From: Thiothrix subterranea | GTDB lineage: Bacteria > Pseudomonadota > Gammaproteobacteria > Thiotrichales > Thiotrichaceae | Direction: 5' to 3' | Length of the DNA stretch: 64,000 nt | NCBI RefSeq assembly: GCF_030930995.1 | Contig: NZ_CP133217.1 | Span: 620,001-684,000, forward strand | Part shown: one piece after another, positions 1,039-16,543 of the stretch | How the letters are laid out: every line of letters starts with the position of its first letter | Position numbering within the stretch: position 1 is the stretch's first letter | Translations under genes and position numbers: made by a program | Notes under the pieces: model-generated | Told to the model about the DNA's origin: nothing | The model's input: the letters and a program-made list of their open reading frames with translations, nothing else | Databases searched by the model: none

Positions 1039-2877
1039 CTATTCGACCGTCACGGATTTCGCCAAATTGCGCGGCTTGTCCACATCCGTGCCTTTCAACA
1101 CCGCCACGTGGTAAGACAGCAATTGCAACGGAATCGTGTACACAATCGGTGCAAGCATTTCAGGGACGTGTGGCATTTCCAGCACATGCAAATTATCCGC
1201 CGCGACGATATGCGCATCGCGGTCAGCAAACACATACAACTCACCGCCACGCGAACGCACTTCTTCCAAGTTGGACTTTAGTTTCTCCAGCAAGGCAGTA
1301 TTAGGCGCTACCGTGACAATCGGCATCTCGCTGTCGACCAACGCGAGTGGCCCATGCTTAAGTTCACCGGCGGGATAGGCTTCGGCGTGAATATAGGAAA
1401 TTTCCTTGAGCTTGAGTGCCCCTTCCATCGCAATCGGGTAGAGTTCACCACGCCCTAAGAACAGTGCATGGTTTTTCTCGATGAAACGTTCTGCCAGTGT
1501 TTCGATTTTCGGGTTCAGGTCTAACGCTTGCTCGATCAGCGCAGGCAATTTGCGTAAATCCGCCACCATTTGCGCCACTTTCGCTTTGTCCGCACCTTTA
1601 GCTTGCATCAGCAATACCATTAGCAATTGCAACGCCACCAATTGCGTCGTAAACGCTTTGGTCGAAGCCACGCCGATTTCCGGCCCCGCCATTGTCATCA
1701 ATGACATATCGGATTCGCGCGTCAAGGAGCTTTCTGCCACATTGCAAATGGTCAACGTTGCCAATGCACCGTGGTTTTCCTTGATCTTTTCCAACGCCGC
1801 CAACGTATCAGCGGTTTCACCCGACTGCGAAATCGTCACGAACAACATATTCTTGCGCGGCGGCTGACGGCGGTAACGGTATTCGCTGGCGACTTCCACA
1901 TTGCACGGAATGTCCGTATTCGCCTCAATCCAATAGCGCCCCACCAAACCTGCATGGTAGCTCGTGCCACACGCTAGAATTTGAATTTCCTCGACTTGCG
2001 CCAAGCGTTCCAACGCATCCGGCACACCCAGCAAGGCAGGCAACACATGATCACCCGCCAAACGGTTTTCCAATGTACCCGTCACGGATTGCGGCTGCTC
2101 GAAGATTTCTTTCAACATGAAATGGCGGTAGTCACCCAACTCTGCCGAACACATCGACGCATTCGATTCACGTACCGGACGCTCCACGCGCTCGCCATTC
2201 AGGTCAAAAATGTCGATCTTCTTGCGCGTAATCCGCGCCACATCGCCATTTTCCAAATAAATAAAGCGACTGGTCACGGGTAACAGCGCTTGAATATCCG
2301 AACCAATGAAGTTTTCACCAATCCCCAAACCCAGCACCAGCGGGCTGCCTTGGCGTGCCACGATCAGCGTATCCGGCTCATCCGGTGAAATCACCGCCAT
2401 GGCATACGCGCCATGCAATTCACAACGCGCCGCCATCACCGCATCCAACATGCTCACACCCTGACGGCGGAAGATGTCGATCAAATGCGCAATCACCTCG
2501 GTATCGGTATCCGAATCAAAACGGTAGCCGTCATCCTGCAAGCGTTTGCGCAGTTCGACATGGTTTTCGATAATGCCGTTATGCACCAAACCGACCCATT
2601 CGCCACTGAAATGCGGGTGTGCATTGCGTTCGGCAGGCACGCCGTGCGTCGCCCAACGGGTGTGCGCAATGCCCAGCTTGCCATCAATCGGCTCGCCTTC
2701 GAGACGCTCCATCAGCGCCGCGACTTTGCCTACCGCACGACTACGCACCAAATCCCCCGCCTCACGAATGACCGCTACCCCTGCGGAGTCATAACCGCGA
2801 TATTCCAGACGTCGTAAGCCTTCCAATAAAATTTCCACCACCGGACGTTGCGCAACTGCGCCGACAATACCACACAT
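1039..2877 (-). CDS. glmS: glutamine--fructose-6-phosphate aminotransferase (isomerizing)
   Basis: GlmS makes glucosamine-6-phosphate from fructose-6-phosphate and glutamine, the entry step to UDP-GlcNAc for peptidoglycan and other glycans. The protein is 612 residues, close to the usual 605-610. It begins [10 protein letters not shown], so Cys2 is available as the glutaminase nucleophile, followed by [10 protein letters not shown]. The glutaminase domain fills roughly residues 1-240. Two SIS sugar-isomerase domains follow, with CGTSYHAG near 305 and [11 protein letters not shown] near 350. It ends in the typical KSVTVE. Its start codon overlaps the glmU stop as TAATG, so translational coupling with glmU is expected. 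Confidence 0.97.
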
Positions 2878-4256
2878 TATTTTTTCTCCTTCACTGGACG
2901 CTGCCAGCCTTTCAAGGTCATTTGTTTGGCGCGGGACAAGGTGAGTTCACCTGCCGGAGCATCTTTAGTAATGGTTGAACCTGCACCAATGGTAGCACCG
3001 TCGCCAACGCTGACAGGGGCAACCAATTGGGTGCAAGAACCGACAAACACATCGTTACCGATAACGGTTTTGTGTTTGTTCGCACCGTCGTAGTTACAGG
3101 TAATCGTGCCTGCCCCAATATTCACGTTGTCGCCCATCTCGGTATCGCCGATGTAGCTCAGGTGATTGACCTTGCTGCCTTTACCGATGATGGCTTTTTT
3201 GGTTTCGACGAAATTACCAATCTTGGCTTTTGCAGCAAGAACTGTGCCGGGGCGCAAACGGGCAAACGGGCCAATGTCGCAATTTTCCGCAATTACTGCT
3301 GATTCGATCACGGAATGGGATTTGATGTGCGTATTGTCGCCAATTTCAGCATCCTGAATCACGCAACCGGCTTCCACCGTGACGTTATTGCCGAACTTGA
3401 CCTTGCCGATTAACACCACATTCACATCCAAGAATACGTCTTGCCCGGTTTCGACCGTGCCACGAATATCCAAACGGGCGGGGTCAGCGACGGTCACGCC
3501 TTCTAGCATCAGCTTTTCCACTTGACGCTGTTGGCAAGCGCGTTCCAAACGTGCCAATTGCACCCGATTGTTTGCACCCTCGACCTCAACCGGATCAGCA
3601 CACAGTACGGTATTAATACTACCGCCTTCGGCTACCGCCAAGCTGACGCAATCGGTGAGGTAATATTCGCCTTGTGCATTTTGCGGGGTCAGTTGCTGCA
3701 ACCAACGCTTCATATCTGCACCGCGCGCGGCAATAAAGCCGGTGTTCACTTCGCGGATCTGGCGCTGCGTATCAGTTGCATCTTTTTCTTCGACAATCGC
3801 CTGCACCAAACCGTCAGCATTGCGCACAATACGCCCGTAGCCTTTCGGATCAGCGAGTTGCGTGGTCAAAATGCATAACGCTGCATCGCCCAAGCCTTGC
3901 GCCAAGGCTTGCAAGGTCGTGGAACGAATCAGCGGTACATCGCCATACGCAATCAATACCACGTCATCATTGTCCACCAAATGGATGGCTTGGCTGACCG
4001 CATGACCCGTGCCTTTTTGCAGCGATTGCAGCGCCCAGTTGAGGTTTTCGCCTTGAATGCGTTCGCGCACCAATTCGCCGCCATGCCCATACACAATCGC
4101 CATGTGGCAAGCCACACAACGGTTTTGCAATACCGCACAAGCATCCACGACGTGTTGCAGCATGGGTTTGCCTGCGATAGGGTGAAGGACTTTAGGCAAC
4201 GCGGAACGCATCCGAGTGCCTTGACCCGCTGCGAGGATAATCGGAAAAATATTCAT
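2877..4256 (-). CDS. glmU: bifunctional UDP-N-acetylglucosamine diphosphorylase / glucosamine-1-phosphate N-acetyltransferase
   Basis: GlmU acetylates glucosamine-1-phosphate and then couples it to UTP, giving UDP-GlcNAc. The 459-residue length fits the family (E. coli 456). The N-terminal nucleotidyltransferase signature [19 protein letters not shown] lies at residues 8-26. The C-terminal half is a left-handed beta-helix of hexapeptide repeats, including [16 protein letters not shown] and the acetyl-CoA-site region [11 protein letters not shown]. It is the first gene of glmU-glmS; the two genes are adjacent in many gammaproteobacteria. No glmS ribozyme is expected or seen. Confidence 0.97.
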
Positions 4257-4321
4257 GGGGGATATGCCCGTCAGTAAAATAAAATGATTGTCTTAAATAA
4301 TAGTCATATTATGCAGCCTGA

Positions 4322-5014
4322 TTACGTGATGCTCATCACATCCAGCTCATCAAAGTTTTTTACCCAAGGGTGCTGCAAGGTAGCCGTTGGCTGATTTTCG
4401 CGAACCAGACAGCACGTTTTTAAACCCACTTGCGCGGCAGCATCCAATTCTTCCGCAATATCCGACAGGAACAGGATCTCGCTTGCCGACAAATCAAGCG
4501 CTTCCACAATCGTCTGATACGATTTAGCCTCGCGCTTATGCCCTACCGCCGTATCGAAATAGCCACTGAACAGCGGGGTTAAATCACCGGCATCAGAATA
4601 CCCGAACAACAGCTTCTGCGCATACACCGAACCCGACGAATAGACATACAATTTCAGACCAAGCTCATGCCAGTGCAGTAAATGGCGCACCGCATCTTCA
4701 TACACATGCCCCGTGAAATCGCCGTTGCGGTAGCCTTCTTCCCACATCAAACCCTGAATCGCTTTTAGCGGGGTAATCTTTTTATCGTCCGCAATCCACT
4801 GCCGCAATTGCGCAATCGCCTCCGCCAACGACAACACCGCATTGCCGGTTTCCAGGCGCACGTCATCTATGAGCTTGGCGACTTGTGGGTCTTGACGATG
4901 CTTCACCACAAACACTTCCATTTGCTGGTCGGCGTAAGGAAATAACACGTCTTTCACGAATGACAGACTGGTGGTCGTGCCTTCAATGTCGGTGAGTATG
5001 GCTTTAATGCTCAT
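4322..5014 (-). CDS. mtnC: acireductone synthase (enolase-phosphatase E1)
   Basis: MtnC converts 2,3-diketo-5-methylthiopentyl-1-phosphate to the acireductone of the methionine salvage pathway, doing both enolisation and dephosphorylation. The protein is 230 residues, the usual size. The HAD-family motif I appears near the N-terminus as ILTDIEGTTTS, the E1-specific form. Motif II is seen in LYVYSSGSV, and the C-terminal acidic motif in EILFLSDIAEELDAA. Its ATG overlaps the mtnD stop as TGATG. It is the last gene of mtnB-mtnD-mtnC. Confidence 0.95.
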   Translation of the reverse strand: MSIKAILTDIEGTTTSLSFVKDVLFPYADQQMEVFVVKHRQDPQVAKLIDDVRLETGNAVLSLAEAIAQLRQWIADDKKITPLKAIQGLMWEEGYRNGDFTGHVYEDAVRHLLHWHELGLKLYVYSSGSVYAQKLLFGYSDAGDLTPLFSGYFDTAVGHKREAKSYQTIVEALDLSASEILFLSDIAEELDAAAQVGLKTCCLVRENQPTATLQHPWVKNFDELDVMSIT

Positions 5015-5556
5015 CAGTTCTCCAAGCGTGGAAACAGTGCCGCAATCTCACTGCCGGTAAAATTCGCCACCCAACCGTCAGTATTGGTGAACAAGCGAAT
5101 CGCCTTGAAACGTGGATTCGGCCCCATATCAAACCAATGCGTCGCCCCTGCTGGCACGCTGATCAAATCGCCCTTTTCGCACAACACGGCAAACACTTTG
5201 TCACCGAGATGCAGGAAAAACAAACCCTGGCCATCCACAAAAAAACGTACTTCGTATTCAGTATGGGTGTGTTCGTTCAAGAATTTCTGGCGGAACAGCG
5301 CTTTATCGGGATGATCCGGGGTCAAACTGATCACATCCACACTCTGGAAGCCGTTTTCAGCCATTAAACGGTCAATATCCGCACGGTACGCCGCAATCAC
5401 TTCCTCTTGTGTTGCCGAATCCGCCAAGGGCGCATTGGCTTCCCAGCGTTCAAAGCGCACACCCTGCTCCTGCAATAACGCACTGATGGTGGCGTAATCG
5501 GTGTACGTTTGCGCCTGTTGCGGATTATTGTCCGCGTAAATCTTCAATTCACTCAT
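5014..5556 (-). CDS. mtnD: acireductone dioxygenase (ARD)
   Basis: ARD is a cupin metalloenzyme that oxidises the acireductone to 2-keto-4-methylthiobutyrate and formate with Fe2+, or takes an off-pathway route with Ni2+. The 180-residue protein carries the metal ligands in the expected order: H96, H98 and E102 in HTHTEYEVRFF, and H140 in AGATHWFDMG. The sequence does not decide which metal is bound. It sits 4 bp after mtnB and overlaps mtnC, so the three genes form one operon for recycling methylthioadenosine sulfur. Confidence 0.95.
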   Translation of the reverse strand: MSELKIYADNNPQQAQTYTDYATISALLQEQGVRFERWEANAPLADSATQEEVIAAYRADIDRLMAENGFQSVDVISLTPDHPDKALFRQKFLNEHTHTEYEVRFFVDGQGLFFLHLGDKVFAVLCEKGDLISVPAGATHWFDMGPNPRFKAIRLFTNTDGWVANFTGSEIAALFPRLEN

Positions 5557-6303: not shown

Positions 6304-6340
6304 ATTGAACTTACACACAAATTTGCTAGGAAACACACTC

Positions 6341-6802
6341 ATGAAATTACAAGCTATTCTTTTCTCTGCTCTGATCGCTCTGTCTGGCGCTGCTTCTGCT
6401 GAATTCTTTGACGGCTTCGACAACGGTTCTGCAACTGGCAACACGGCTGGTAACGGCACTGCTTCTACTGCTGGTAACGGCACTGGCTACAGCAAAGGCA
6501 ACGGCGATGCAAACGGCTGGGGTCGTGGTAAAGGCGACGCTGACGGTGAAGTTGATTTCAGCATCACTTTCAAAGGCAAAGGCCGCACTAATCTGGATAC
6601 CGACATGGCTGCTAACGGCAAAGGCAACGGCGACTGGTACGGCGCTGGCAATGGTTACGGCTACGGTGATGGCAACAGCAACGCTTACGGCACTGGCAAC
6701 TCTTCCAAAGCTGGCTACGGCGCTCCTGTAATGGCTCCTGCTATGCCAATGGCTGCACCACAAGCACAAGCGCCAGTTGCTGCACCTGCTGCTGCGAAAT
6801 AA
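6341..6802 (+). CDS. Gly/Asn-rich exported protein, candidate sulfur-globule envelope protein
   Basis: The 153-residue protein starts MKLQAILFSALIALSGAASAEFF, a clear Sec signal peptide cut after about residue 20. The mature part is built from short repeats of GNG, GNGYGYGDGN, GKGNGDW and similar units. It ends in a low-complexity Pro/Ala/Met tail (APVMAPAMPMAAPQAQ). Signal peptide, small size, Gly/Asn/Tyr repeats and a lack of Cys match the structural proteins that coat periplasmic sulfur globules in purple sulfur bacteria and Thiothrix, but this link is by composition only. The gene is followed by two hairpins, so it is probably a strongly expressed single-gene unit. An alternative is a generic Gly-rich surface protein. 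Confidence 0.6.
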   Translation: MKLQAILFSALIALSGAASAEFFDGFDNGSATGNTAGNGTASTAGNGTGYSKGNGDANGWGRGKGDADGEVDFSITFKGKGRTNLDTDMAANGKGNGDWYGAGNGYGYGDGNSNAYGTGNSSKAGYGAPVMAPAMPMAAPQAQAPVAAPAAAK

Positions 6803-6834
6803 TACTTAGGGCGGGAATACCTGCTCACAGTCCT

Positions 6835-6870
6835 AGCAAGGGCATCATTCTTCGGGATGGTGCTCTTGCT
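6835..6870 (+). terminator. Long imperfect hairpin downstream of the Gly-rich gene
   Basis: AGCAAGGGCATCAT and ATGGTGCTCTTGCT pair through about 14 positions, with two G-T wobbles, around an 8-base loop. It begins 32 bp after the stop codon. There is no T-run directly after it, so it may stabilise the mRNA 3' end ahead of the true terminator at 6884. Confidence 0.45.
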
Positions 6871-6883
6871 TTCGTTTATGCGC

Positions 6884-6914
6884 AAAAAAAGCCCGGTTAA
6901 TTCGGGCTTTTTTT
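6884..6914. terminator. Bidirectional rho-independent terminator between the Gly-rich gene and nrdB
   Basis: A7 - GCCCG - 7-base loop - CGGGC - T7. The symmetric A and T tracts let it serve both convergent units. Confidence 0.9.
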
Positions 6915-6934
6915 GTTTCAGGGCAAGCGCAAAC

Positions 6935-8215
6935 TTAATCCCACTTCAGCGCACCGCCCGTTTGGTATTCCGTCACGCGCGTTTCAAAGAAGTTCTTTTC
7001 CTTACGCATATTGGACTGCTCGTCCAACCAAGGCAGGGCATTTTGTGCACCGGGGAACGGTTCTGCCATGCCCAACTGACGCGCCCGCCGGTTGGCAATA
7101 AAGCGGAACTGTTCGTGATGGTCTTGCTGGCTATAACCCAAAATCGGCGTCGGCAGGATGTACTTGGAATAGTTGATTTCCGCCGCTTCCGCCTCATCCC
7201 ACATATCGCGCACCGCTTGCGGGTCGAGTGTCACGTTTTCTTCCTGCATGATTTGGCGCACCACACGGATACCAAAGGATGCGTGCATTACTTCATCGCG
7301 CATAATGTATTGAAATTGCTCACCCGTGCCTTTCATCATGCCGCGACGTTGCAGCGCAAAAATCGGTGAAAAACCGTTGTAGAACCAGCAGCCTTCAAAA
7401 ATCCCCGAAAAGAATGTGTACGACATTACAAAATTGTGCAGATCGTCGCGATTCTTCAGGTCAATGTCATGGCGCAGCGCATCGTTTAAGCGGCGGTTCG
7501 CCAGTTGGATTTTGGCGTTGATTTCCGGCACGACGCGGTAACGGTTGTAGATTTCCACCTGATCCAGCCCGATGGTTTCAATGCAATGCTGGTAAGTCCA
7601 AGTATGCAATGCTTCTTCGTAGACTTGACGGGCTTGGTAGATTTGCAATTCCGGCGCGGTCATTTTTTCCATGACTGCCAAGCCAATATTGCGCATCGCC
7701 AGAATGTCGGAAGTGGTCAAGTAAGCCAGCACGTTTTCATAAACGTGACGTTCGGCGGGGCTGAGGTTGTGATGGTAGTCATGCACATCCTGCGCCATAT
7801 TGATGTCGAGTGGTGTCCAGTGGTTTTTATTGGCGTTGAGGAAAAAATCCCATGCCCACGGGTATTTGAACGGGGCGAGTTGGTTGATGTCGCCGCTGCC
7901 ATTGATCACGCGCTTGTCAGCGCTACTGATCGGCTGTTGAGGTTTGAAAGGCTCTGGCACAAACGGCTGGCGGGTAGGGCTGACCGTTGGAGCGGCTTCT
8001 ACAGTTCTGTGAGAAGCCGCCTCTGTTACCGCCGTTGCAAGCGTCGCCGACTCCGTTGGCGATTTAACTGCAACTTGGGTTTTTGCACTGAGCTCACTTT
8101 CATCTACCTCCACAGTAGGTTCTTCAACAAACACTTCGTCAAAACTAAAAGCCGGTTGATAGCCGTTCGTGCGCGGCACGGGTGCGGCAAGTGGGTTATC
8201 CCAATTAAGCGTCAT
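6935..8215 (-). CDS. nrdB: class Ia ribonucleotide reductase, beta subunit
   Basis: NrdB houses the diiron-tyrosyl radical that starts reduction of ribonucleotides in NrdA. The protein is 426 residues; about the first 100 form a low-complexity acidic/Ala/Pro extension not needed in the family core. Iron ligands and radical Tyr are visible as YEEALHTWTYQH: E201, H204 and, four residues on, Y208, the position of the E. coli radical Tyr122. MRDEVMHASFG supplies later ligands. The C-terminal tail contacts NrdA. The start is supported by TTAGGAGAG upstream. The gene is the last of nrdA-R-M-nrdB, 67 bp after the methyltransferase gene. Confidence 0.95.
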   Translation of the reverse strand: MTLNWDNPLAAPVPRTNGYQPAFSFDEVFVEEPTVEVDESELSAKTQVAVKSPTESATLATAVTEAASHRTVEAAPTVSPTRQPFVPEPFKPQQPISSADKRVINGSGDINQLAPFKYPWAWDFFLNANKNHWTPLDINMAQDVHDYHHNLSPAERHVYENVLAYLTTSDILAMRNIGLAVMEKMTAPELQIYQARQVYEEALHTWTYQHCIETIGLDQVEIYNRYRVVPEINAKIQLANRRLNDALRHDIDLKNRDDLHNFVMSYTFFSGIFEGCWFYNGFSPIFALQRRGMMKGTGEQFQYIMRDEVMHASFGIRVVRQIMQEENVTLDPQAVRDMWDEAEAAEINYSKYILPTPILGYSQQDHHEQFRFIANRRARQLGMAEPFPGAQNALPWLDEQSNMRKEKNFFETRVTEYQTGGALKWD

Positions 8216-8282
8216 GATTTTACTCTCCTAAATGCTGAATGCCAACTAAACTAAGGTTTGAGGCTGGCAGGTGGTAATATTT

Positions 8283-9767
8283 TCACGCAGAAATCCCCAA
8301 CAAAAGCTGACCTTGCTGTGCATGGGTTTCATTGGATTGCAAACGTGACCAATCCAGTAGGTTTAAAATACTAGCTTTCACAGGTCTTTTTTCATCCCAA
8401 AAAATGAGTGAAGACAATAATTCTTTTGCTGCATCAGAATGCAATAGTGCGAAAACCTTTTGCGCTACCGCCTCTTCATCAAATGACAAGTAATATACCG
8501 TGTCATCAAACATGACAGGCTTTCCCTCTATGGGCGCAATCAACCTAAAATCCAGTGACTTATACAACCCACAAATGGCGATACGCCACGGTCGGAAAGA
8601 ATAAGCACCAACGCCAAAGACCGAAAATTGCGGGTTTTTTATATAAATAGAGCTGGCACGCGCTCCTAAAATATCCGCATGTTTTTGCAAGTATCTCCAT
8701 GTTTTTGGTGTACGTGTACGGATACTATCTGTTGATTCACCGACATACCGCTGAGTAACCAGCAGGTATTTCTTCCTCCAACCTTTACCACTACCAATAT
8801 CAGAACCTTTCATCAGGGGGTAAAGATAATCCGATTCCAGATCAACTGTTTCACCATAGCCGTTTTGCAATGTTTGCCCATGACGAGTCAGTTCCATTAC
8901 CGCAGCCGCATCATGCTTGACACCAGAACGCCACTTTTCAGGGCTTTTCCCCACCAACGCAACATGAGCATCGAACGCATCCAAATCAGCAATACTCAAT
9001 CCCAACCGATGCCCGACACGCTGCCCCTGTGTCGATTCTAAATTATCAAATACTTGGTACTCATCTGTTGCTACCACGGCATTGTTGAAACGCACCACCA
9101 GCAAACAAGCGTCGACCGACACATCAAAAGCCTTCTTCGCGTCTATTTTAATGATGCAACTACTGGCTAATGCCAAGCCCTGCCGTTGGGCATGAGCAAG
9201 TACTTTACGGGCAACAGCAGTTTTCACCAGCATTGCCACATCACCTTGCCGCCCTTCCATCCAACGGAACACCTCCAGCAGCATCCATTCCGAAATATCG
9301 AAATTGGCTTTGCCCGTAATAGCATCAAGCCCGTTATGGTGTTGGAAATTGGCTTTACGCGGCAAGTTGACCCCACCGATGCCACTTTGGACTGAGTTTG
9401 TTACCCAAGGAAAATTTCCCAATACCAGCAAAGCACCTGAAGCTTGTTCCAAAATAGCTTGCCAGCGGGTTGCAAAAAAATCAGCTTGAGCCAAATAAAC
9501 ACGCCCTGATTCCAGTTCATGCTGCAAACGTAAACGCGAGGTTTCCAAATAGTCGCTATTAACCTCAAAACCCATAATTTGTTTTGCTGTTGGAAAAGTT
9601 TGCGTTGCGGCTAAAACAAAAGCACCAACCCCACACGTCGGCTCAATGACGACTTCAGGGCGAATTTCCAAATCATACAAACGCTTGCATACCGCCACTG
9701 CCAATGTATCTGGGGTTTGAAAGTCACCGAATTCAATACGTTGTTTGCGTGCAGCAGCGGTAGTCAT
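8283..9767 (-). CDS. DNA adenine N6-methyltransferase of a type II restriction-modification system
   Basis: The protein is 494 residues. Motif X is FGDFQTPDTLA, the S-adenosylmethionine motif I is IEPTCGVGAFVLAA, and the catalytic motif IV is GNFPWVTNS. Most relatives have NPPW here, so the NFPW form is a notable variant, but the Asn and the Pro-aromatic pair remain. This order of motifs (X, I, IV, then a C-terminal target-recognition part) is that of gamma-class N6-adenine methyltransferases such as M.TaqI-like enzymes. The ATG overlaps the upstream nuclease stop as ATGA. It presumably protects the same site cut by the neighbouring nuclease; that site cannot be read from sequence. Confidence 0.85.
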   Translation of the reverse strand: MTTAAARKQRIEFGDFQTPDTLAVAVCKRLYDLEIRPEVVIEPTCGVGAFVLAATQTFPTAKQIMGFEVNSDYLETSRLRLQHELESGRVYLAQADFFATRWQAILEQASGALLVLGNFPWVTNSVQSGIGGVNLPRKANFQHHNGLDAITGKANFDISEWMLLEVFRWMEGRQGDVAMLVKTAVARKVLAHAQRQGLALASSCIIKIDAKKAFDVSVDACLLVVRFNNAVVATDEYQVFDNLESTQGQRVGHRLGLSIADLDAFDAHVALVGKSPEKWRSGVKHDAAAVMELTRHGQTLQNGYGETVDLESDYLYPLMKGSDIGSGKGWRKKYLLVTQRYVGESTDSIRTRTPKTWRYLQKHADILGARASSIYIKNPQFSVFGVGAYSFRPWRIAICGLYKSLDFRLIAPIEGKPVMFDDTVYYLSFDEEAVAQKVFALLHSDAAKELLSSLIFWDEKRPVKASILNLLDWSRLQSNETHAQQGQLLLGISA

Positions 9768-10429
9768 ACTTGCTGCCCCCGATACACAGCTCGAACACCG
9801 TCAACATTTCCTGCTTTTTCAATAACACGAGAGTATTGCAACCTCCATTGCAGAGCATTGGAAATCGTTAAATAGCCTTGCTTGGGTTTATTTTGCAGAA
9901 TTTCTGCCACCAGATTATCCAAACCAACGTCATCCACAGGCAGATTTTTCTCTGACAGAAAAGCGACTAGATCATCCCTGTTGCCATCATTCTCCAGAAT
10001 GTCACGGATGCCCTTGGTCATTTGGAAATCAGCCGTATTTTCTGCTTCCACAAAAACCGTATCAGAAATATTCAGATTAGCTGTACGGGCAAACTCATCA
10101 TCCGTTTTGCCGTACACGAAAATGATTAACGAATAACCTAGTCCATACACTTTTTGCCGTGCTGATCTGAACGGGCATGATGACTGCGGCTGACGAATGC
10201 TGGTGACTTTCATATCGACCAATAAACAGGGAAAGTCTATGCCATTGGCAGAATTCCCTTCCTCAAATTGATACCCTCGTCCACGCAAGAATGCACGGAA
10301 TTTGTGTTCCAGATACGTGCCCACAGCTTTGCCATCTGTAACTCCAAACAGCGATGGCTCAGGATGTTGACTTTCGAAAGCTGCAAAACGGGCAGCTTCG
10401 GAGCAAAGAGTTTCAATGCTCAATTGCAT
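9764..10429 (-). CDS. putative type II restriction endonuclease (PD-(D/E)xK fold)
   Basis: The 221-residue protein is placed between nrdA and the methyltransferase gene. It contains GTYLEHKFRAF (E41), then NGIDFPCLLVDMKVTS (D65, D72 and K74), the spacing expected for a PD-(D/E)xK nuclease core. The start at 10429 is chosen because its ATG overlaps the nrdA TAA as TAATG; an in-frame ATG at 10447 would overlap nrdA by 18 bp. No specific restriction family was recognised, so the nuclease call rests on the motif plus pairing with an adenine methyltransferase. Confidence 0.7.
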   Translation of the reverse strand: MQLSIETLCSEAARFAAFESQHPEPSLFGVTDGKAVGTYLEHKFRAFLRGRGYQFEEGNSANGIDFPCLLVDMKVTSIRQPQSSCPFRSARQKVYGLGYSLIIFVYGKTDDEFARTANLNISDTVFVEAENTADFQMTKGIRDILENDGNRDDLVAFLSEKNLPVDDVGLDNLVAEILQNKPKQGYLTISNALQWRLQYSRVIEKAGNVDGVRAVYRGQQV

Positions 10430-13400
10430 TACTGGCAAGCCTCGCACTCTGGATCAAGCAACGAACACGCCTTCGGTGCTTCCGAACCCACCGATACCAA
10501 ATTCGCTGCCCGCTTAATCCCCGCCACGCTATCCGCTGCCGAAGAATCATCCGAGCTAGTCTTTTCCGCGCCCGTAGCCCCCAAAGTGCGCAGGTAATAG
10601 GTGGTTTTCAGCCCACGCACCCACGCCAGTTTGTAGAGATTGTCCAGTTTCGTGCCATTCGGCTCTTTCATGTACAGGTTGAGCGATTGCCCCTGATCAA
10701 TCCATTTCTGGCGGCGGCTGGCAGCTTCGACCAACCAACGTGCATCGATTTCAAACGCGGTGGCGTACTTGGCTTTGAGCGCATCCGGCACACGATCCAG
10801 CGGTTGCAGCGAGCCGTCAAAGTATTTGAGGTCGTTAATCATCACCTCATCCCACATGCCGAGTGCTTTCAAATCCTGCACCAGATACGGGTTGATGACA
10901 GTAAATTCGCCCGACAAATTGGATTTGACGAACAGGTTCTGGTAAGTCGGCTCGATGGACTGCGACACGCCGCAAATATTGGAAATAGTCGCCGTCGGCG
11001 CAATCGCCATCACGTTGGAATTGCGCATTCCTTGTGCTTTGACTTGGTTGCGCAACGCATCCCAATCCAACGTTTGGGTGTGGTCAACGATGAAATATTC
11101 GCCGCGCTCTTCGCCCAGCAACTCCAGCGAGTCGATGGGCAAAATGCCTTTGCTCCACAGCGAGCCGTTGTAACTCGGATATTTGCCGCGCTCTGCCGCG
11201 AGGTTGCTGGAGGCACGAATCGCGAAATACGACACTGCTTCCATGCTTTGATCGGCGAATTCGACCGCTTCGGTCGTGGCGTAAGCGAGGTTCATTTTGT
11301 ACAGCGCGTCTTGGAAACCCATGATGCCCATGCCGACCGGACGGTGGCGCAAGTTAGATTTCCGCGCTTGTGGCACGCTGTAGTAATTGTAGTCAATCAC
11401 GTTATCCAGCATTCGCATCGCGGTGGTCACGGTGCGTTCCAGTTTCGCCACATCCAGTTTGCCGTCGTTGACGTGCGCGGTCAGGTTGACTGAGCCAAGA
11501 TTACATACTGCAATTTCGCCGTCATTGGTGTGTAAGGTAATTTCGGTACAGAGGTTGCTGGAATGCACCACACCCATGTGCTGATTGGTATAGCGCACAT
11601 TACACGGGTCTTTGAACGTAATCCACGGATGCCCGGTTTCAAAGATCATCCCCAACATTTTGCGCCACAATTGTACCGCTGGTACTTTGCGGAATAATTT
11701 CATATCGCCGCGTGCCGCTTTGGCTTCGTATTCGACGTAACGCGCTTCAAAAGCTTTGCCGGTCAAGTCATGTAAATCGGGCGCATCGTCGGGGGAAAAC
11801 AGCGTCCATTCCGCTTCTGCTGCCACGCGCTTCATGAACAGGTCGGGAATCCAGTTGGCAGTATTCATGTCGTGGGTACGGCGGCGTTCGTCGCCCGTAT
11901 TTTTGCGCAGTTCGAGGAAGTCTTCGATGTCGATATGCCAAGTTTCGAGGTAAGCACAGACTGCGCCCTTCCGTTTTCCACCATTGTGCGCCAGTGCCGC
12001 CGTCGTCATATAGGACTCGTCGCCTTCCACAATCAGATCGAATACGAATGGCAGGGTTGGAATACTTTCCACACCGCGCACACGGCTGAAGACGCAACCG
12101 TTGTAAGTCAGCCAGTTACGCTTGTCGATAGGCTGGCAAGCAACCAGTGCCGCGATTTCAGGCACAGCAGGAATACGCACATCAAACACCGAATCGCGCA
12201 TTTGACCAGATGTTGGAATACCTAAACGCAAGCACTGGTAACGCATACCTTCAGCCAAAGCACGGGTAACAGTACTGAAACAAATGTCCTCATCCTGCTT
12301 AACAACAACATTGTTTTCCAGCAAGCCGTGCAGCAGTGCCAGTGTTTGCGGCTGTGACAAATGGCTAAAACGACGGGCAATGCGTTTTTCACCCTGAGCG
12401 TTGTAAAAGTCATCATAAACAAAAGTGAATCCAGCACCATCATTAACGACACAACCTGTCGTTGCTTCACGTACAACTTTACGTTCGCAAAGCCACTGAA
12501 TTTCAGCATCAGACGACGGAGAACCCAGCAAAATACCGTACAGCCGCGCATCGTCAGCATCAAAACCATCCACCATCACCGTTTCGGTCGGGATGACTTG
12601 TGCAACATAATCACCTTTTTGCAACTGCGCTGCTTCGACCCATTCCGGCTTCACCTTGCCTTTTGCCAACCAATTAACGGTACGGTCGTTCGCCTGCTCC
12701 AACGGTACACCGCACAGCGCGTAGAACGGATGTCCTGCGGTCACTTTCACGGGTTCAATCGAATGCTTCACATCCAGAGCTACCATTGCATCGTGCTGGT
12801 TGTAAACCATAGCGCGTTTGACTTCACGGTAAGTGCCGCTGATACCTAGCACCAAATCGCCCGCTTTCACGTCACGAATGGCTTTAATGCCATCGGCGGT
12901 GTGAAGCTGCGTATCCGGCGCGAAACACTGATTGACCGCGACCGCCGTATCATTCGCCACCTTCAAAAATGGCACAACGCCCTGCGACTTGCCATTCGTG
13001 CCTTTGATATGCGCCCCCATGCCGCGCACCCGTGACCAGTCGTTACCCAAACCCCCCGCGTATTTTGACAGCAAGGCATTGTCTTTAATCGCGTCGTAAA
13101 TCCCTTCCAAATGGTCGGGTACGGTGGTCAGGTAGCAAGACGACAACTGCGGGCGCAATGTCCCGGCGTTAAACAACGTCGGCGTGCTGCTCATGAAATC
13201 AAAGCTGGACAGCAGGTTGTAAAACTCAATCGCGCGGTCTTCGCGCTCGACTTCGTTAATTGCCAAGCCCATTGCCACGCGCATGAAAAACACCTGCGGC
13301 AATTCAAAACGTACCCCGTCGTGATGCAGGAAATAGCGGTCATACAGCGTTTGCAAGCCGAGGTAAGTAAACTGCAAATCGCGTTCCGGCTTAATCGCCG

Positions 13401-14205
13401 CGCCCAATTTCTCCAGATCGTAACGCCCCAAATCATCCGCCAAACGCTCGACCTTGACCCCGATCTGAATGGTTTTTTTCAAGACTTCAGCATAAAGCTC
13501 AACCATTTCGTGCTGGGTGGCTTCGGTGTGCTGGCCTTCAAGGAAACTCAAGGCTTCGCGGCGCAAGCTGTCCATCAACATCCGCGCGGCGGCCTGGGAA
13601 TAATTCGGCTCACGGTCAATCATCACGCGGGTGCTGATAATCAACGCGGTGGCGACTTCTTTTTCGGAAATGCCGTCGTACAAATTGCGCATGGTGGCGG
13701 TCATGACTTGTTCGGCACTGACCCCTTCCAAGCCATCGACCGCTTCCGCGATAATCTTGCGTAACCGCTCTTCGTCCAACGGTTTCAAATCGCCGGACGC
13801 GGATTTTACGTGGATCACGTTTTCGGATTTTTTGCCTTTTTTCTTACTCTTCGCATCTTTTTCAGCACGCAACCGCGCCCGTTCCGCACGATACAGCACG
13901 TAACTCCGCGCCACTTTGTGTTCACCTGCTCGCATTAACGCCAACTCCACTTGATCTTGAATGTCTTCGATATGCACCATGCCGCCATCGGGGGTGCGGC
14001 GCAGCAAGGCATCAACGACTTGCGCGGTCAACTTATGCACGGTGTCGTGAATGCGTGCCGAGCCTGCTGCATTGCTGCCTTCCACATCCAAAAAGGCTTT
14101 GGTCATCGCCACCTGAATTTTGCTGCCGTCGAAGTCCGTCACCTGACCATTGCGGCGGATAACTTTGCATTTAGGGGTCATTTCAAGGTTAATGGCGGCT
14201 TGCAT
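10429..14205 (-). CDS. nrdA: class Ia ribonucleotide reductase, alpha subunit, with an in-frame intein
   Basis: NrdA reduces ribonucleoside diphosphates using the NrdB radical. The 1258-residue product contains about 943 residues of NrdA sequence plus a 315-residue intein. The N-terminus has an ATP-cone (KVIRRNGQVTDFDGSKI, residues 14-30) and a second cone-like region near 131-220. The 10-stranded barrel signatures include STPTLFNAGT, LETWHIDIEDFLELR and NLCTEI. The C-terminal tail ends CEACQ, the CxxC pair that re-reduces the active site. AAAGGAC precedes the ATG. Two NrdR boxes lie upstream. The first ATP-cone suggests dATP feedback control. The restriction gene that follows overlaps its stop codon. 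Confidence 0.95.
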   Translation of the reverse strand: MQAAINLEMTPKCKVIRRNGQVTDFDGSKIQVAMTKAFLDVEGSNAAGSARIHDTVHKLTAQVVDALLRRTPDGGMVHIEDIQDQVELALMRAGEHKVARSYVLYRAERARLRAEKDAKSKKKGKKSENVIHVKSASGDLKPLDEERLRKIIAEAVDGLEGVSAEQVMTATMRNLYDGISEKEVATALIISTRVMIDREPNYSQAAARMLMDSLRREALSFLEGQHTEATQHEMVELYAEVLKKTIQIGVKVERLADDLGRYDLEKLGAAIKPERDLQFTYLGLQTLYDRYFLHHDGVRFELPQVFFMRVAMGLAINEVEREDRAIEFYNLLSSFDFMSSTPTLFNAGTLRPQLSSCYLTTVPDHLEGIYDAIKDNALLSKYAGGLGNDWSRVRGMGAHIKGTNGKSQGVVPFLKVANDTAVAVNQCFAPDTQLHTADGIKAIRDVKAGDLVLGISGTYREVKRAMVYNQHDAMVALDVKHSIEPVKVTAGHPFYALCGVPLEQANDRTVNWLAKGKVKPEWVEAAQLQKGDYVAQVIPTETVMVDGFDADDARLYGILLGSPSSDAEIQWLCERKVVREATTGCVVNDGAGFTFVYDDFYNAQGEKRIARRFSHLSQPQTLALLHGLLENNVVVKQDEDICFSTVTRALAEGMRYQCLRLGIPTSGQMRDSVFDVRIPAVPEIAALVACQPIDKRNWLTYNGCVFSRVRGVESIPTLPFVFDLIVEGDESYMTTAALAHNGGKRKGAVCAYLETWHIDIEDFLELRKNTGDERRRTHDMNTANWIPDLFMKRVAAEAEWTLFSPDDAPDLHDLTGKAFEARYVEYEAKAARGDMKLFRKVPAVQLWRKMLGMIFETGHPWITFKDPCNVRYTNQHMGVVHSSNLCTEITLHTNDGEIAVCNLGSVNLTAHVNDGKLDVAKLERTVTTAMRMLDNVIDYNYYSVPQARKSNLRHRPVGMGIMGFQDALYKMNLAYATTEAVEFADQSMEAVSYFAIRASSNLAAERGKYPSYNGSLWSKGILPIDSLELLGEERGEYFIVDHTQTLDWDALRNQVKAQGMRNSNVMAIAPTATISNICGVSQSIEPTYQNLFVKSNLSGEFTVINPYLVQDLKALGMWDEVMINDLKYFDGSLQPLDRVPDALKAKYATAFEIDARWLVEAASRRQKWIDQGQSLNLYMKEPNGTKLDNLYKLAWVRGLKTTYYLRTLGATGAEKTSSDDSSAADSVAGIKRAANLVSVGSEAPKACSLLDPECEACQ
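11983..12927 (-). other. Intein within NrdA (residues 427-741), homing endonuclease decayed, Gly at +1
   Basis: The intein interrupts NrdA between VAVNQ and GGKRKGAVCAYLETW. Splicing block A begins with Cys427 (CFAPDTQLHTADG), block B has the TxxH form at T489-H492 (VTAGHPF), and blocks F/G read VFDLIVEGDESYMTTAALAHN, ending H740-N741. At 315 residues it is longer than a mini-intein. Segments like LYGILLGSPSSD and LLHGLLENNVVV sit where LAGLIDADG motifs would be, but the catalytic acidic residues are missing, so DNA cutting is unlikely. The residue after Asn741 is Gly, whereas class 1 inteins need Cys, Ser or Thr there. Confidence 0.85.
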
Positions 14206-14242
14206 TCGGTGTCCTTTGATCTATTGGTTTATTTTGAGCAAA

Positions 14243-14290
14243 GCACTATAGGATGTGTTTTAGGAGCTGGTCAAGCACAAGATATGGTCT
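14243..14290 (-). promoter_or_regulatory. Pair of NrdR boxes upstream of nrdA
   Basis: GCACTATAGGATGTGT (14243-14258) and GCACAAGATATGGTCT (14275-14290) each match the 16-bp NrdR consensus ACACWATATATWGTGT at 12 positions. Their starts are 32 bp apart, about three helical turns, as in known nrd operators. NrdR is the ATP/dATP-sensing repressor of ribonucleotide reductase genes. If real, it would also control the embedded restriction-modification genes. Confidence 0.7.
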
Positions 14291-14435
14291 AATTTGCGCA
14301 TATTTCTACTTGCCTTTTACGATGATTTTACAAAACAGTGACTTGCCTGCATCCACCCACAGCATTTTTGCGTACAATTCCACAGACGCAGTTTCCCTGC
14401 GCATAAAGCAACTTTTATATTCCTAGGAGATTGAA

Positions 14436-14936
14436 ATGATGAAAACAAACACATCCCTGAAACTGGCTTTGGGCGCCACCTTCGCAGTCGTTACCTTGGG
14501 CGCAGGAGCGGTTAGTGCAGAAAACCCGTTTGCTGCCAACACCCTCACTAACGGCTACATGCAACTGGCTGAAAACAAAGCAGACGGTGAAATGAAATGT
14601 GGCGCAGGCATGTGCGGTGCGAATATGAAAGCCGGTGAAGGCAAATGCGGTGGCGATATGGACTGCCCAGCCGATGCTGATAAAGACGGCAAAGTCACGA
14701 AAGAAGAATTCATGGCTCACCACGAAAAAATGTTTACCGAAGCCGATGCTGACAAAGATGGCTCATTGAGTGCTGACGAACGTAAAGCCCTGCACAGCAA
14801 AATGGGCGAAGGCAAATGCGGGGGCAAAGAAGGCACTTGCGGCGGTAATAAAGAAGAAAAGAAAGATGATAAAACCTCCCAAAATGAAACCTTCCGCCTG
14901 AATACGCCATTCGCGGCTATCAGCATCCAAGGTTAA
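14436..14936 (+). CDS. HvfA/BufA-like RiPP metallophore precursor with two EF-hands
   Basis: The 166-residue product has a signal peptide (about residues 1-28, ending AVSAENPF), as in HvfA/BufA precursors, which keep it. The ENPF...NGYMQLAE segment and repeated Cys motifs (EMKCGAGMCG, EGKCGGD, EGKCGGK, EGTCGG) are the family hallmark; such Cys residues are modified by the DUF692 enzyme in characterised members. Unusually, two EF-hand calcium loops, DADKDGKVTKEEF and DADKDGSLSADE, interrupt the Cys repeats. AGGAGA precedes the tandem ATGATG. The next two genes are the maturation enzymes. Copper or another metal is the likely ligand, by analogy. Confidence 0.8.
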   Translation: MMKTNTSLKLALGATFAVVTLGAGAVSAENPFAANTLTNGYMQLAENKADGEMKCGAGMCGANMKAGEGKCGGDMDCPADADKDGKVTKEEFMAHHEKMFTEADADKDGSLSADERKALHSKMGEGKCGGKEGTCGGNKEEKKDDKTSQNETFRLNTPFAAISIQG

Positions 14937-14939
14937 GCC

Positions 14940-15767
14940 ATGCAGCGTTCTGCCTTAGACGGGGCAGGGCTTGGTTTCCGGCGTGACCATTTGGTTGCGC
15001 TGGAACAACAAGTCCCCGACTGCATTGATTTCTTTGAAATCGCCCCCGAAAACTGGATCGGCACTGACCCGGTTAGCGCCAAACGCTTGCAAGCTTTCAC
15101 CGAACGTTACCCGTTTGTATGCCACGGGCTTTCCTTATCATTAGGCGGTTTAACCCCGCTCAACACCGAATTGCTTACTGAACTCAAGCAATTCATGCAG
15201 TTACACCGTATCCCGCTGTATACCGAGCATTTGTCTTGGTGCTCCGATCACGGGCAATTGTATGACCTGTTACCGATTCCGTTTACCGAAGCAGCGATTC
15301 AGCACACGGTTGCCCGTATTCGCCAAACCCAAGACGTATTGGGACAGCAAATCGGCATCGAGAACGCTTCGTTCTACCTGCAAGCCCCCATCAATGAGAT
15401 GGATGAAGCCACCTTCATCAACGCAGTGCTGAGCGAAGCCGATTGCCTGTTGCATCTGGATGTGAATAACGTCTACGTCAACAGCGTCAACCACGCTTAC
15501 GACCCCTACGAATTTTTACGCAAACTGCCCAAAGAACGGGTGGTATACCTGCACATGGCAGGGCATTACCAACAAGAAGAAAACCTGCTGATCGACACGC
15601 ACGGCGCTCCAGTCATCGACCCGGTGTGGGCATTGCTGGATTTCACCTACCAGCAATTTGGCGTATTCCCGACCTTGTTGGAACGCGACTACCATATCCC
15701 GCCCCTAGAAGAATTGCTCCCGGAAGTGACGCACATTGCCAGCCTGCAACGGAAACACGCCGCATGA
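14940..15767 (+). CDS. DUF692 (MbnB/BufB/HvfB-type) multinuclear iron RiPP-modifying oxidase
   Basis: DUF692 enzymes use a two- or three-iron centre to oxidise Cys residues of precursor peptides. The 275-residue protein shows the family's TIM-barrel motifs in order: FEIAPENW (residues 32-39), CHGLSLSLGG (H62), TEHLSW (E96, H97), IENASF (E141), HLDVNNVYVN (D174, N176), YLHMAGH (H205, H209) and DTHGAPV (D219, H221). It starts 3 bp after the precursor stop codon and overlaps the next gene as ATGA. The partner arrangement precursor - DUF692 - DUF2063 is the diagnostic operon of bufferin/HvfA-type products. Confidence 0.92.
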   Translation: MQRSALDGAGLGFRRDHLVALEQQVPDCIDFFEIAPENWIGTDPVSAKRLQAFTERYPFVCHGLSLSLGGLTPLNTELLTELKQFMQLHRIPLYTEHLSWCSDHGQLYDLLPIPFTEAAIQHTVARIRQTQDVLGQQIGIENASFYLQAPINEMDEATFINAVLSEADCLLHLDVNNVYVNSVNHAYDPYEFLRKLPKERVVYLHMAGHYQQEENLLIDTHGAPVIDPVWALLDFTYQQFGVFPTLLERDYHIPPLEELLPEVTHIASLQRKHAA

Positions 15768-16543
15768 ATGCTACTGAAGCCTACCAACGTGCCTTTGCCG
15801 CCCATTTGCGCGACCCCGCAGCGAATCCGCCACCTGCCGGTGTTGATGCGGCACGAGCGGGTGTTTACGTGGAATTGCTGTTCAATAATGTGGAAGATTT
15901 CCTCAGCAACTGCTTTCCGGTGATTCGCAGCATTCTGGATGATGACGCATGGAATGCGTTGGTACGCCAATTTTACGCCGAACACGCTTGCACCACGCCG
16001 TATTTCCGCGAAATCCCCGCCGAATTTGTGCAATGGCTCACGTCGACTTCGCTCAGTGACCGCTCTCCCTCGTTCACTGAGCAAAGTCGAAGCGTCCCCT
16101 TCTTACTAGAACTCGCGCATTACGAATGGGTGGAAATCCCGCTGACACTCGCTGACGCGACTATCGACTGGCAGCACATCGACCCGGACGGTGATTTATT
16201 GGATGGCACACCGGTATTGAATCCAGTCATGTTGTTGCAAAGCTATCAATACCCCGTCCACCGCATTAGCGCGGCTTACCAACCGCACACCCCTGAACCC
16301 ACCCATTTATTATTAATACGAAATAGAGAAAATAAAATTGATTTTATAGAACTTAATGCCATTACCGCTAAACTGGTAAAACACTTACAAGAGGGGGAAA
16401 ATGCCAGAAAAGCTCTCACTCGGATTGCTGTGGAAATTCAACACCCAAACATTGAGCAACTATTAGCGTTCGGATTAACCCTGTTACACCAGTTTCAACA
16501 ACAACACGTATTATTGGGTGTGGCGAATCTCTCGACGCCATAA
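15764..16543 (+). CDS. DUF2063 (BufC/HvfC-type) RiPP recognition and maturation partner
   Basis: DUF2063 proteins bind the precursor and assist the DUF692 oxidase. The 259-residue product starts at the ATGA overlap with the previous stop; upstream in-frame codons lie inside that gene. N-terminal features are AYQRAFAAHLRDP and VYVELLFNNVEDFLSNCFPV; the centre has PFLLELAHYEWVEI. A Ser/Arg-rich stretch between QWL and PFLLEL is encoded by a palindromic repeat that appears to have inserted in frame (see 16042-16093). The C-terminus carries an HTH-like segment. Confidence 0.88.
   Translation: MNATEAYQRAFAAHLRDPAANPPPAGVDAARAGVYVELLFNNVEDFLSNCFPVIRSILDDDAWNALVRQFYAEHACTTPYFREIPAEFVQWLTSTSLSDRSPSFTEQSRSVPFLLELAHYEWVEIPLTLADATIDWQHIDPDGDLLDGTPVLNPVMLLQSYQYPVHRISAAYQPHTPEPTHLLLIRNRENKIDFIELNAITAKLVKHLQEGENARKALTRIAVEIQHPNIEQLLAFGLTLLHQFQQQHVLLGVANLSTP
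16042..16093. repeat. REP-like palindrome inserted in frame in the DUF2063 gene
   Basis: Arms CGACTTCGCTCAGTGA (16044-16059) and TCACTGAGCAAAGTCG (16074-16089) pair at 15 of 16 positions around a 14-base loop. The palindrome encodes about 17 Ser/Arg-rich residues that interrupt a conserved region of the protein. No second copy was noticed elsewhere in the window. Confidence 0.65.

Follow-up and report, generated by a model that had tools for sequence, protein, structure and literature searches.

The nrdA-nrdB junction of Thiothrix subterranea and its relatives is probably an exchange site for Type II restriction-modification systems

Why should a restriction-modification (R-M) pair stand between nrdA and nrdB, the genes for the large chain of class I ribonucleotide reductase and for the ribonucleotide reductase small chain? 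Such a pair is found in a stretch of 64,000 nt from Thiothrix subterranea (assembly GCF_030930995.1, contig NZ_CP133217.1, positions 620,001 to 684,000 of the forward strand), which is called the window here and to which coordinates refer unless a locus number is given. On its minus strand, nrdA (10429..14205, matched by the NrdA model and containing an in-frame intein) is followed by the genes for a Type II restriction endonuclease (REase) of 221 amino acids (aa; 9764..10429) and its cognate DNA methyltransferase (MTase) of 494 aa (8283..9767) and by nrdB (6935..8215, matched by the NrdB model). The last A of the nrdA stop codon TAA at 10431-10429 is the first base of the nuclease ATG (TAATG), the nuclease stop codon overlaps the methylase ATG at 9767-9764 (ATGA), and the methylase stop codon is separated from the nrdB start codon by 67 nt containing an AGGAG ribosome site. 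The GC content of the pair is 45-46%, compared to 52-53% for nrdA and nrdB. This gene order on one strand and both junctions had been described in an initial annotation of the locus and were confirmed, and the genes were rightly called an R-M pair, since both proteins match R-M families (NF052465, PADLOC REase_II, and MTase_II). The pair had also been taken to be embedded in the operon and translationally coupled; the four genes appear to form one unit, with no convincing promoter between genes in a consensus scan, and the TAATG and ATGA junctions favour coupling. We consider it highly probable that the nrdA-nrdB junction is an R-M exchange site, which in the window holds a complete, selected Type II system.

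The nrdA-nrdB region of the window was compared with that of 20 relatives (21 loci in total; genomes are denoted by G numbers, the window genome being G000, and individual stretches by L numbers). R-M genes or their remnants are located between nrdA and nrdB in 12 of the 16 genomes of the genus, G000 included, and ten of the 16 carry at least one complete pair; the junction is empty (21-62 nt) in G052, G055, G057, and G059. A chance insertion is excluded because the same junction is occupied so often, and a chance similarity or annotation artefact because both proteins match family models and are under purifying selection. The search for relatives with the same arrangement had been set in advance as a check, and the outcome that none exist did not occur. 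The proposed embedding thus recurs and is not one odd insertion, but the notion of a single designed link is too narrow given interchangeable cassettes, scars, and repeats.

In the family outside the genus, the junction was readable in 25 of 47 genomes (G024 lacks nrdA upstream), and G040 was the only one of the 25 with R-M genes. The nrdA-nrdB gap of G045 contains a gene for a 318-aa protein (L100:262-1215, minus strand) with a DUF4145 match below cut-off, which, at a guess, is possibly a HEPN-like defence gene. Small DUF2188 genes were observed directly after nrdA in the sister genus (L051:5263-5490 in G040 and L101:4700-4939 in G039). A class-wide sample comprised 274 genomes, 149 of them with NrdB; 85 places with enough flank were read, and 81 of these had nrdA upstream, including seven in which nrdB was unmatched and the gap, at most 452 nt, is an upper bound. 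The remaining four (G324b, G065, G202, and G232) had no qualifying nrdA upstream, and no R-M-like frame was seen by eye in the fetched stretches, from which an insert longer than the stretch would escape. Outside the family, one of the 81 readable junctions holds R-M genes (G158), and other single genes occur in G118 and G124. The difference in occupancy between the genus (12/16) and these places (1/81) corresponds to a Fisher p of 3e-11, which is a guide only, as the genomes include kin and the choice of junctions was non-random.

The nuclease of the window scores 341.7 bits against NCBIfam NF052465 ('type II R-M system restriction endonuclease', cut-off 290) and matches PADLOC REase_II (PDLC03454) with an E value of 1e-107; it has no match in Pfam. 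Its residues D65, D72, and K74 are invariant in 19 of 19 aligned sequences and, by the roles inferred for them, probably make it an enzyme of the PD-(D/E)XK type, for which the fold list did not name a closest REase subfamily. The methylase, assigned by PADLOC and by alignment, matches MTase_II (PDLC03310) with an E value of 3e-201 over most of its length, gives methylase matches below cut-off only in Pfam and yields nothing above cut-off in NCBIfam; judged from the regions of its motifs EPTCGVGAF and NFPW and from motif order, it is probably a gamma-type N6-adenine methyltransferase. The window pair belongs to the family defined by NF052465 and PDLC03310. In other bacteria of several phyla, 16 loci with the window REase were inspected; a methylase homologue adjoins the nuclease in 15 of them, and, unlike in the window, the DNA examined contains no nrdB and no close nrdA match. 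The sole, weak nrdA matches lie in L116, 2.5-5 kb upstream of the REase within a frame of 1185 aa that, by eye, resembles a reductase of a different class with an intein. REases of this family are also present on nine plasmid records (Aeromonas, Klebsiella, Nostoc, and lactic acid bacteria), and one phage record carries a relative of the window REase (52%). The dN/dS ratio was 0.05-0.26 in all 28 pairs compared across six R-M genes, a range which indicates purifying selection on both the R and M genes. By family, the pair is a complete and selected Type II R-M system with predicted activity.

Five unrelated complete Type II systems were detected at the junction in the genus by family search. 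System a, the NF052465 REase with its MTase, is present in G000, G062, and G056 and broken in G061 and G054; system b, an Eco29kI-type REase with a 5-methylcytosine (m5C) MTase, occurs in G060, G061, and G051, and its MTase alone in G056; system c, a NotI-like REase (E 2e-6) with an N6/N4 MTase, occurs in G048, G053, and G058, and as an MTase with an REase tail in G049; system d, a BsuBI/PstI REase with MTase, is present in G056, and system e, a BsaWI-like REase with an m5C MTase, in G050. In G056, d, the methylase of b, and a are stacked in this order, G054 retains pieces of two systems, and G060 has an additional m5C MTase, apparently circularly permuted in its order of motifs. G040, which belongs to another genus of the same family, has c as well as a broken REase and the methylase of b; the REase frames of c in G040 and G058 are open.

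A 4-kb region around nrdR, unlinked to the locus, was used as a baseline for the relatedness of the genomes. Four clusters of near relatives (93-97% identity in this region) comprise G000/G060/G061, G048/G062, G049/G056, and G052/G053, and in all four the cassettes differ among members. Close relatives thus have, by alignment and family assignment, different R-M systems at one homologous site. Conversely, cassettes are often more alike than the baseline: cassette a shares 94% identity over 2,226 nt between G000 and G062 (baseline 79%), 95% between G000 and G056 (80%), and 91% between G056 and G062 (76%); cassette b shares 92% between G060 and G051 (79%), and cassette c 97% between G048 and G049 (77%) and 89% between G048 and G053 (79%). 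Across the genus border, G040 and G048 share 1,846 nt at 94%, compared to 63-79% in windows of their nrdA genes. The flanks are mosaic as well, with G048 and G062 sharing 98% in nrdB and 92-93% in nrdA, and G049 and G056 97% at nrdR and 91% in nrdB.

An earlier tenant has left traces. The nrdB leader of the window (8216..8282, minus strand) carries a scar, recognised by comparison with G060, in which the end codons of a circularly permuted m5C methyltransferase, intact in this sister genome, are followed by a leader with the ribosome site; 62 nt before nrdB are 98.4% identical to the 3' end of the extra m5C methylase of G060 and its leader. A 30-nt tail of this scar is recognisable in G000, G056, G061, G053, and G054 (none of 300 shuffles reached the score) and was not recognised by the shuffle test in G062, G052, G059, G049, G048, and G051; the scar first seen by eye in G062 is unsupported, as 73 of 300 shuffles reached its score. 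The tail is a trace of an earlier tenant, although some of its spread may be due to transfer along with cassette a.

Several of these systems are loyal to the site. Among 63 family genomes, five of five matches to the window REase and four of four to the NotI-like family lie at nrdAB, as do three of four Eco29kI-like ones, the fourth (G042) being located elsewhere and 50% identical. The m5C methylases as a whole show no such loyalty, most matches being elsewhere.

The one case outside the family, G158 from another gammaproteobacterial family, has about 10 kb with two R-M systems between nrdA and nrdB. In order, nrdA is followed by a fusion of RadC (UPF0758) with a D12-class adenine methylase (L191:7914-9692), an unknown gene, and an AlwI-type REase with another methylase behind it; next come 133 aa copied from the NrdA C-terminus, a double methylase, a further Type II REase (PDLC03488), and nrdB. 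The NrdA copy is part of a direct repeat of 451 bp (89% identity) which takes in the nrdA 3' end, the spacer and the opening codons of the following gene and which flanks one of the two systems. In G050, the nrdA end recurs as a copy of 33 nt (94%) to the right of the cassette, and no target repeat was detected in the window (best 16 nt, E 0.62). The repeats in G158 and G050 suggest that DNA entered through one crossover in the nrdA end, which would have kept nrdA whole. By family assignment, unrelated R-M systems share the junction in the genus, one other genus of the family, and one other gammaproteobacterial family.

How would such cassettes be expressed? A sigma-70-like promoter (TTGACC-18-TATAGT) precedes nrdA at 14274-14245, and two NrdR-box-like sites lie at it on the minus strand, AGACCATATCTTGTGC at 14275..14290 (12 of 16 matches to the NrdR-box consensus) and ACACATCCTATAGTGC at 14243..14258, identified in the box-pair scan and covering the -10 hexamer. 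Their starts are 32 nt apart, equivalent to a 16-bp spacer. The best pair at an allowed spacing was scored against 200 shuffles; none reached the score of the window pair. All 18 genomes inspected have paired sites in front of nrdA, with a spacer of 16 bp in 17 of them and 17 bp in G040, and 0 to 8 of the 200 shuffles reached the pair scores, the weakest being that of G058 (8). The NrdR gene was found in all 16 genomes of the genus. Paired NrdR boxes are described as usually spaced by 15-16 bp (PMC12051234). With the NrdR gene and boxes paired at 16 bp on its promoter, the nrd operon has the features of an NrdR operon with predicted binding; the suggested NrdR control is supported in this sense at the level of the operon, the pair in the window overlapping the promoter.

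Positions 6800-14500 were scanned for promoters and terminators by consensus, which is weak evidence either way. Five promoter-like sites were found compared to 6.9 expected and 13 terminator-like sites compared to 10.4 expected; a minus-strand promoter-like site before nrdB has a -10 that ends one base ahead of the start codon, and three weak minus-strand terminator-like sites (9642, 9122, and 8666) fall within the methylase gene, none being found in the gene junctions. An internal promoter or terminator which would isolate the pair was not convincingly seen, the number of promoter-like sites being below expectation in this weak scan. In 11 of the 12 occupied loci of the genus, the R-M frame next to nrdA begins at -2 to +5 nt relative to the nrdA stop codon (in one of them, G054, it is a remnant with a GTG start), and in G158 it starts 12 nt after it. 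In other bacteria, no same-strand frame of at least 80 aa ends in the 130 nt before the aligned start at 13 of the 16 loci of the window REase. Translational coupling and co-transcription of the pair with the nrd genes are likely from this anatomy. As the only NrdJ-model match in G000 is nrdA itself, below cut-off, and no NrdD was found there (NrdD is present in six of the 16 genus genomes), the nrdB gene behind the pair is expected to be essential.

These observations can be combined in a simple model, in which nrdA and nrdB serve as recombination arms. Incoming DNA would recombine with the conserved nrdA 3' end and the nrdB leader or nrdB, so that incoming cassettes would replace older ones and those which fit the operon would persist; alternatively, a single crossover at the nrdA end would restore nrdA and leave a repeat. 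Promoterless cassettes would be read from the NrdR-controlled nrd transcript and coupled at the nrdA stop codon. Cassettes without a promoter or terminator of their own could persist for two reasons: their reading begins at the nrdA stop codon, and any terminator in this place would deprive nrdB of its transcript.

Several points weigh against this model. The cassette frames include no visible recombinase, which makes the route of entry an inference, and operon co-expression and methylation are predictions from sequence. The baseline is a single region; cassette c is 76% identical between G048 and G058, which equals their baseline (76%) and fits plain descent, and nrdA is 87-96% alike in many species and thus above the nrdR baseline, so that high cassette identity may partly result from exchange of the whole locus or from conservation. 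Internal promoters of the kind described for Eco29kI (PMC3874152) are possible in the cassettes. Close coupling is lacking in G053 and G040, where the first R-M frame lies about 690 and 600 nt past nrdA, and the coupling control is weakened by L116, L123, and L127, in which an open frame (a putative gene) ends near or overlaps the REase start; given such nearer frames in 3 of 16 loci, a control based on the longest upstream frame alone, at a distance of 129 nt or more in all 16, is too loose. Other R-M genes of the genus sit elsewhere than at nrdAB. Six such m5C loci in four genomes (three in G000 and one each in G050, G053, and G048), inspected by eye only, served as a control for tight packing: in L194 a shortened m5C frame abuts a small frame, and in L197 (G048, 1465-5144) 3 nt separate a helicase-like gene from the R-M-like set behind it, whose end overlaps a nadA-like gene (ATGA). 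Tight packing is thus only partly peculiar to nrd, since the set in L197 is equally packed in an unrelated housekeeping cluster.

Could the position itself be adaptive? Newly made DNA must be methylated in Type II systems before the nuclease cuts it, and control by NrdR together with coupling to nrdA might keep R-M expression in step with the demand for deoxyribonucleoside triphosphates (dNTPs), new DNA being methylated as it is made and defence rising when a phage drains the dNTPs. We regard this as a tentative possibility: it would account for unrelated systems beginning at the nrdA stop codon under a conserved NrdR gene (16/16) and box pairs (18/18), for their recurrence in a second family (G158) and for the purifying selection on the R-M genes, but it is opposed by the tight packing in L197, by frames lying close before the window REase at 3 of its 16 loci elsewhere, by the four empty genomes and several decaying loci, and by the order of the pair in the window, where R precedes M, which does not by itself favour methylation first. 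Its extension is doubtful; in this reading the junction would be a docking site that places any resident R-M system under NrdR and dNTP control, methylation capacity and restriction would track DNA replication, and unrelated systems would for this reason have been fitted independently to the nrdA stop codon in at least two gammaproteobacterial families. The sequences point first to a recombination hotspot, coupling to dNTP synthesis being a consequence or an added advantage. A cassette might instead persist selfishly, holding the operon hostage because nonsense or frameshift mutations within it would lower expression of the essential nrdB. The position of nrdB downstream on the same strand behind a 67-nt leader with no convincing promoter and the failure to find a second ribonucleotide reductase in G000 agree with such a polar effect, but decay is evidently tolerated, as broken remnants lie upstream of nrdB in G054, G049, and G061, and we judge this explanation unlikely.

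Inteins offer a further route, by which breaks in nrdA or nrdB would cause conversion of the flanks and carry cassettes along. The NrdA intein of the window (11983..12927, minus strand; 315 aa, 945 nt) is recognised by Hint and intein matches below cut-off and by NrdA identity that resumes on both sides; this site-1 intein measures 945 nt in the window and G049 and 1134 nt in the ten other relatives that carry it. The nrdAB genes of the family have three intein positions, two in nrdA and one in nrdB. In G053 (L041) and G061 (L038), a stretch of about 540 nt ahead of intein 2 has diverged, identity in the profiled pairs being 74-81% in this stretch compared to 86-100% after the intein (77-79% and 97-100% in windows of G052-G053), and the stretch, which has the look expected of a conversion tract, is likely a co-conversion tract of intein homing and as such speaks for this route. 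Nevertheless, R-M genes and inteins are not associated in the 21 loci (nine R-M loci with and four without an intein, five empty loci with and three without, p 1.0), and such hitch-hiking is quite improbable. Hardly credible is a homing endonuclease in place of an R-M system, as in phage T4, where the free-standing nuclease MobE lies between nrdA and nrdB. The position is the same, but the nuclease of the window scores above the equivalog cut-off of a Type II REase and has no homing-endonuclease domain, and a methylase adjoins it here and in 15 of the 16 loci elsewhere.

Both flanks of the operon carry further genes. Divergent from nrdA, genes at 14436-16543 (plus strand) match HvfB (a maturase of the MNIO type for ribosomally synthesised and post-translationally modified peptides, RiPPs) and HvfC above cut-off and stand behind a gene for a small Cys-rich secreted protein; this protein contains EGKCGG-like repeats and a stretch of the EF-hand kind, and the lanmodulin and HvfA models match it below cut-off; these genes probably form a metallophore-type RiPP operon. 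Adjoining nrdB, positions 6305-6802 (plus strand) encode a small secreted-looking protein rich in Gly and Asn with GNG repeats.

The exchange site proposed here constitutes a natural, replicated experiment on how the expression context of the host tames unrelated R-M systems, and it is informative on how such systems, which bring no evident recombinase, pass from species to species; a long nrdA-nrdB gap can serve as a search key for further systems. A full-text literature search gave no mention of R-M genes between nrdA and nrdB in the titles or abstract openings among the matches listed. The bond of R-M swapping to a site is already known as such. Insertion of R-M genes with long target duplication was reportedly described by Nobusato et al. 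in 2000; in this mode the insert lies between direct repeats of its target, an arrangement shared by G158 (451 bp) and perhaps by G050 (33 nt), whereas the window lacks such a repeat and the nrd target was hit repeatedly. In pneumococcus, DpnI, DpnII, and DpnIII are described as restriction cassettes that alternate at a single position of the chromosome (PMC12707154), as is the case here; they comprise three alternatives, all directed against GATC, whereas at least five unrelated systems occur at the nrd junction, across species and in another genus and within an essential operon. The immigration control region of Enterobacteriaceae and other defence hotspots likewise combine fixed core borders with a turnover of defence genes (according to the same source, PMC12707154), but these are larger islands between core genes, whereas the cassettes at the nrdA-nrdB junction are compact Type II systems within an operon of two genes and start at the stop codon of the upstream gene.

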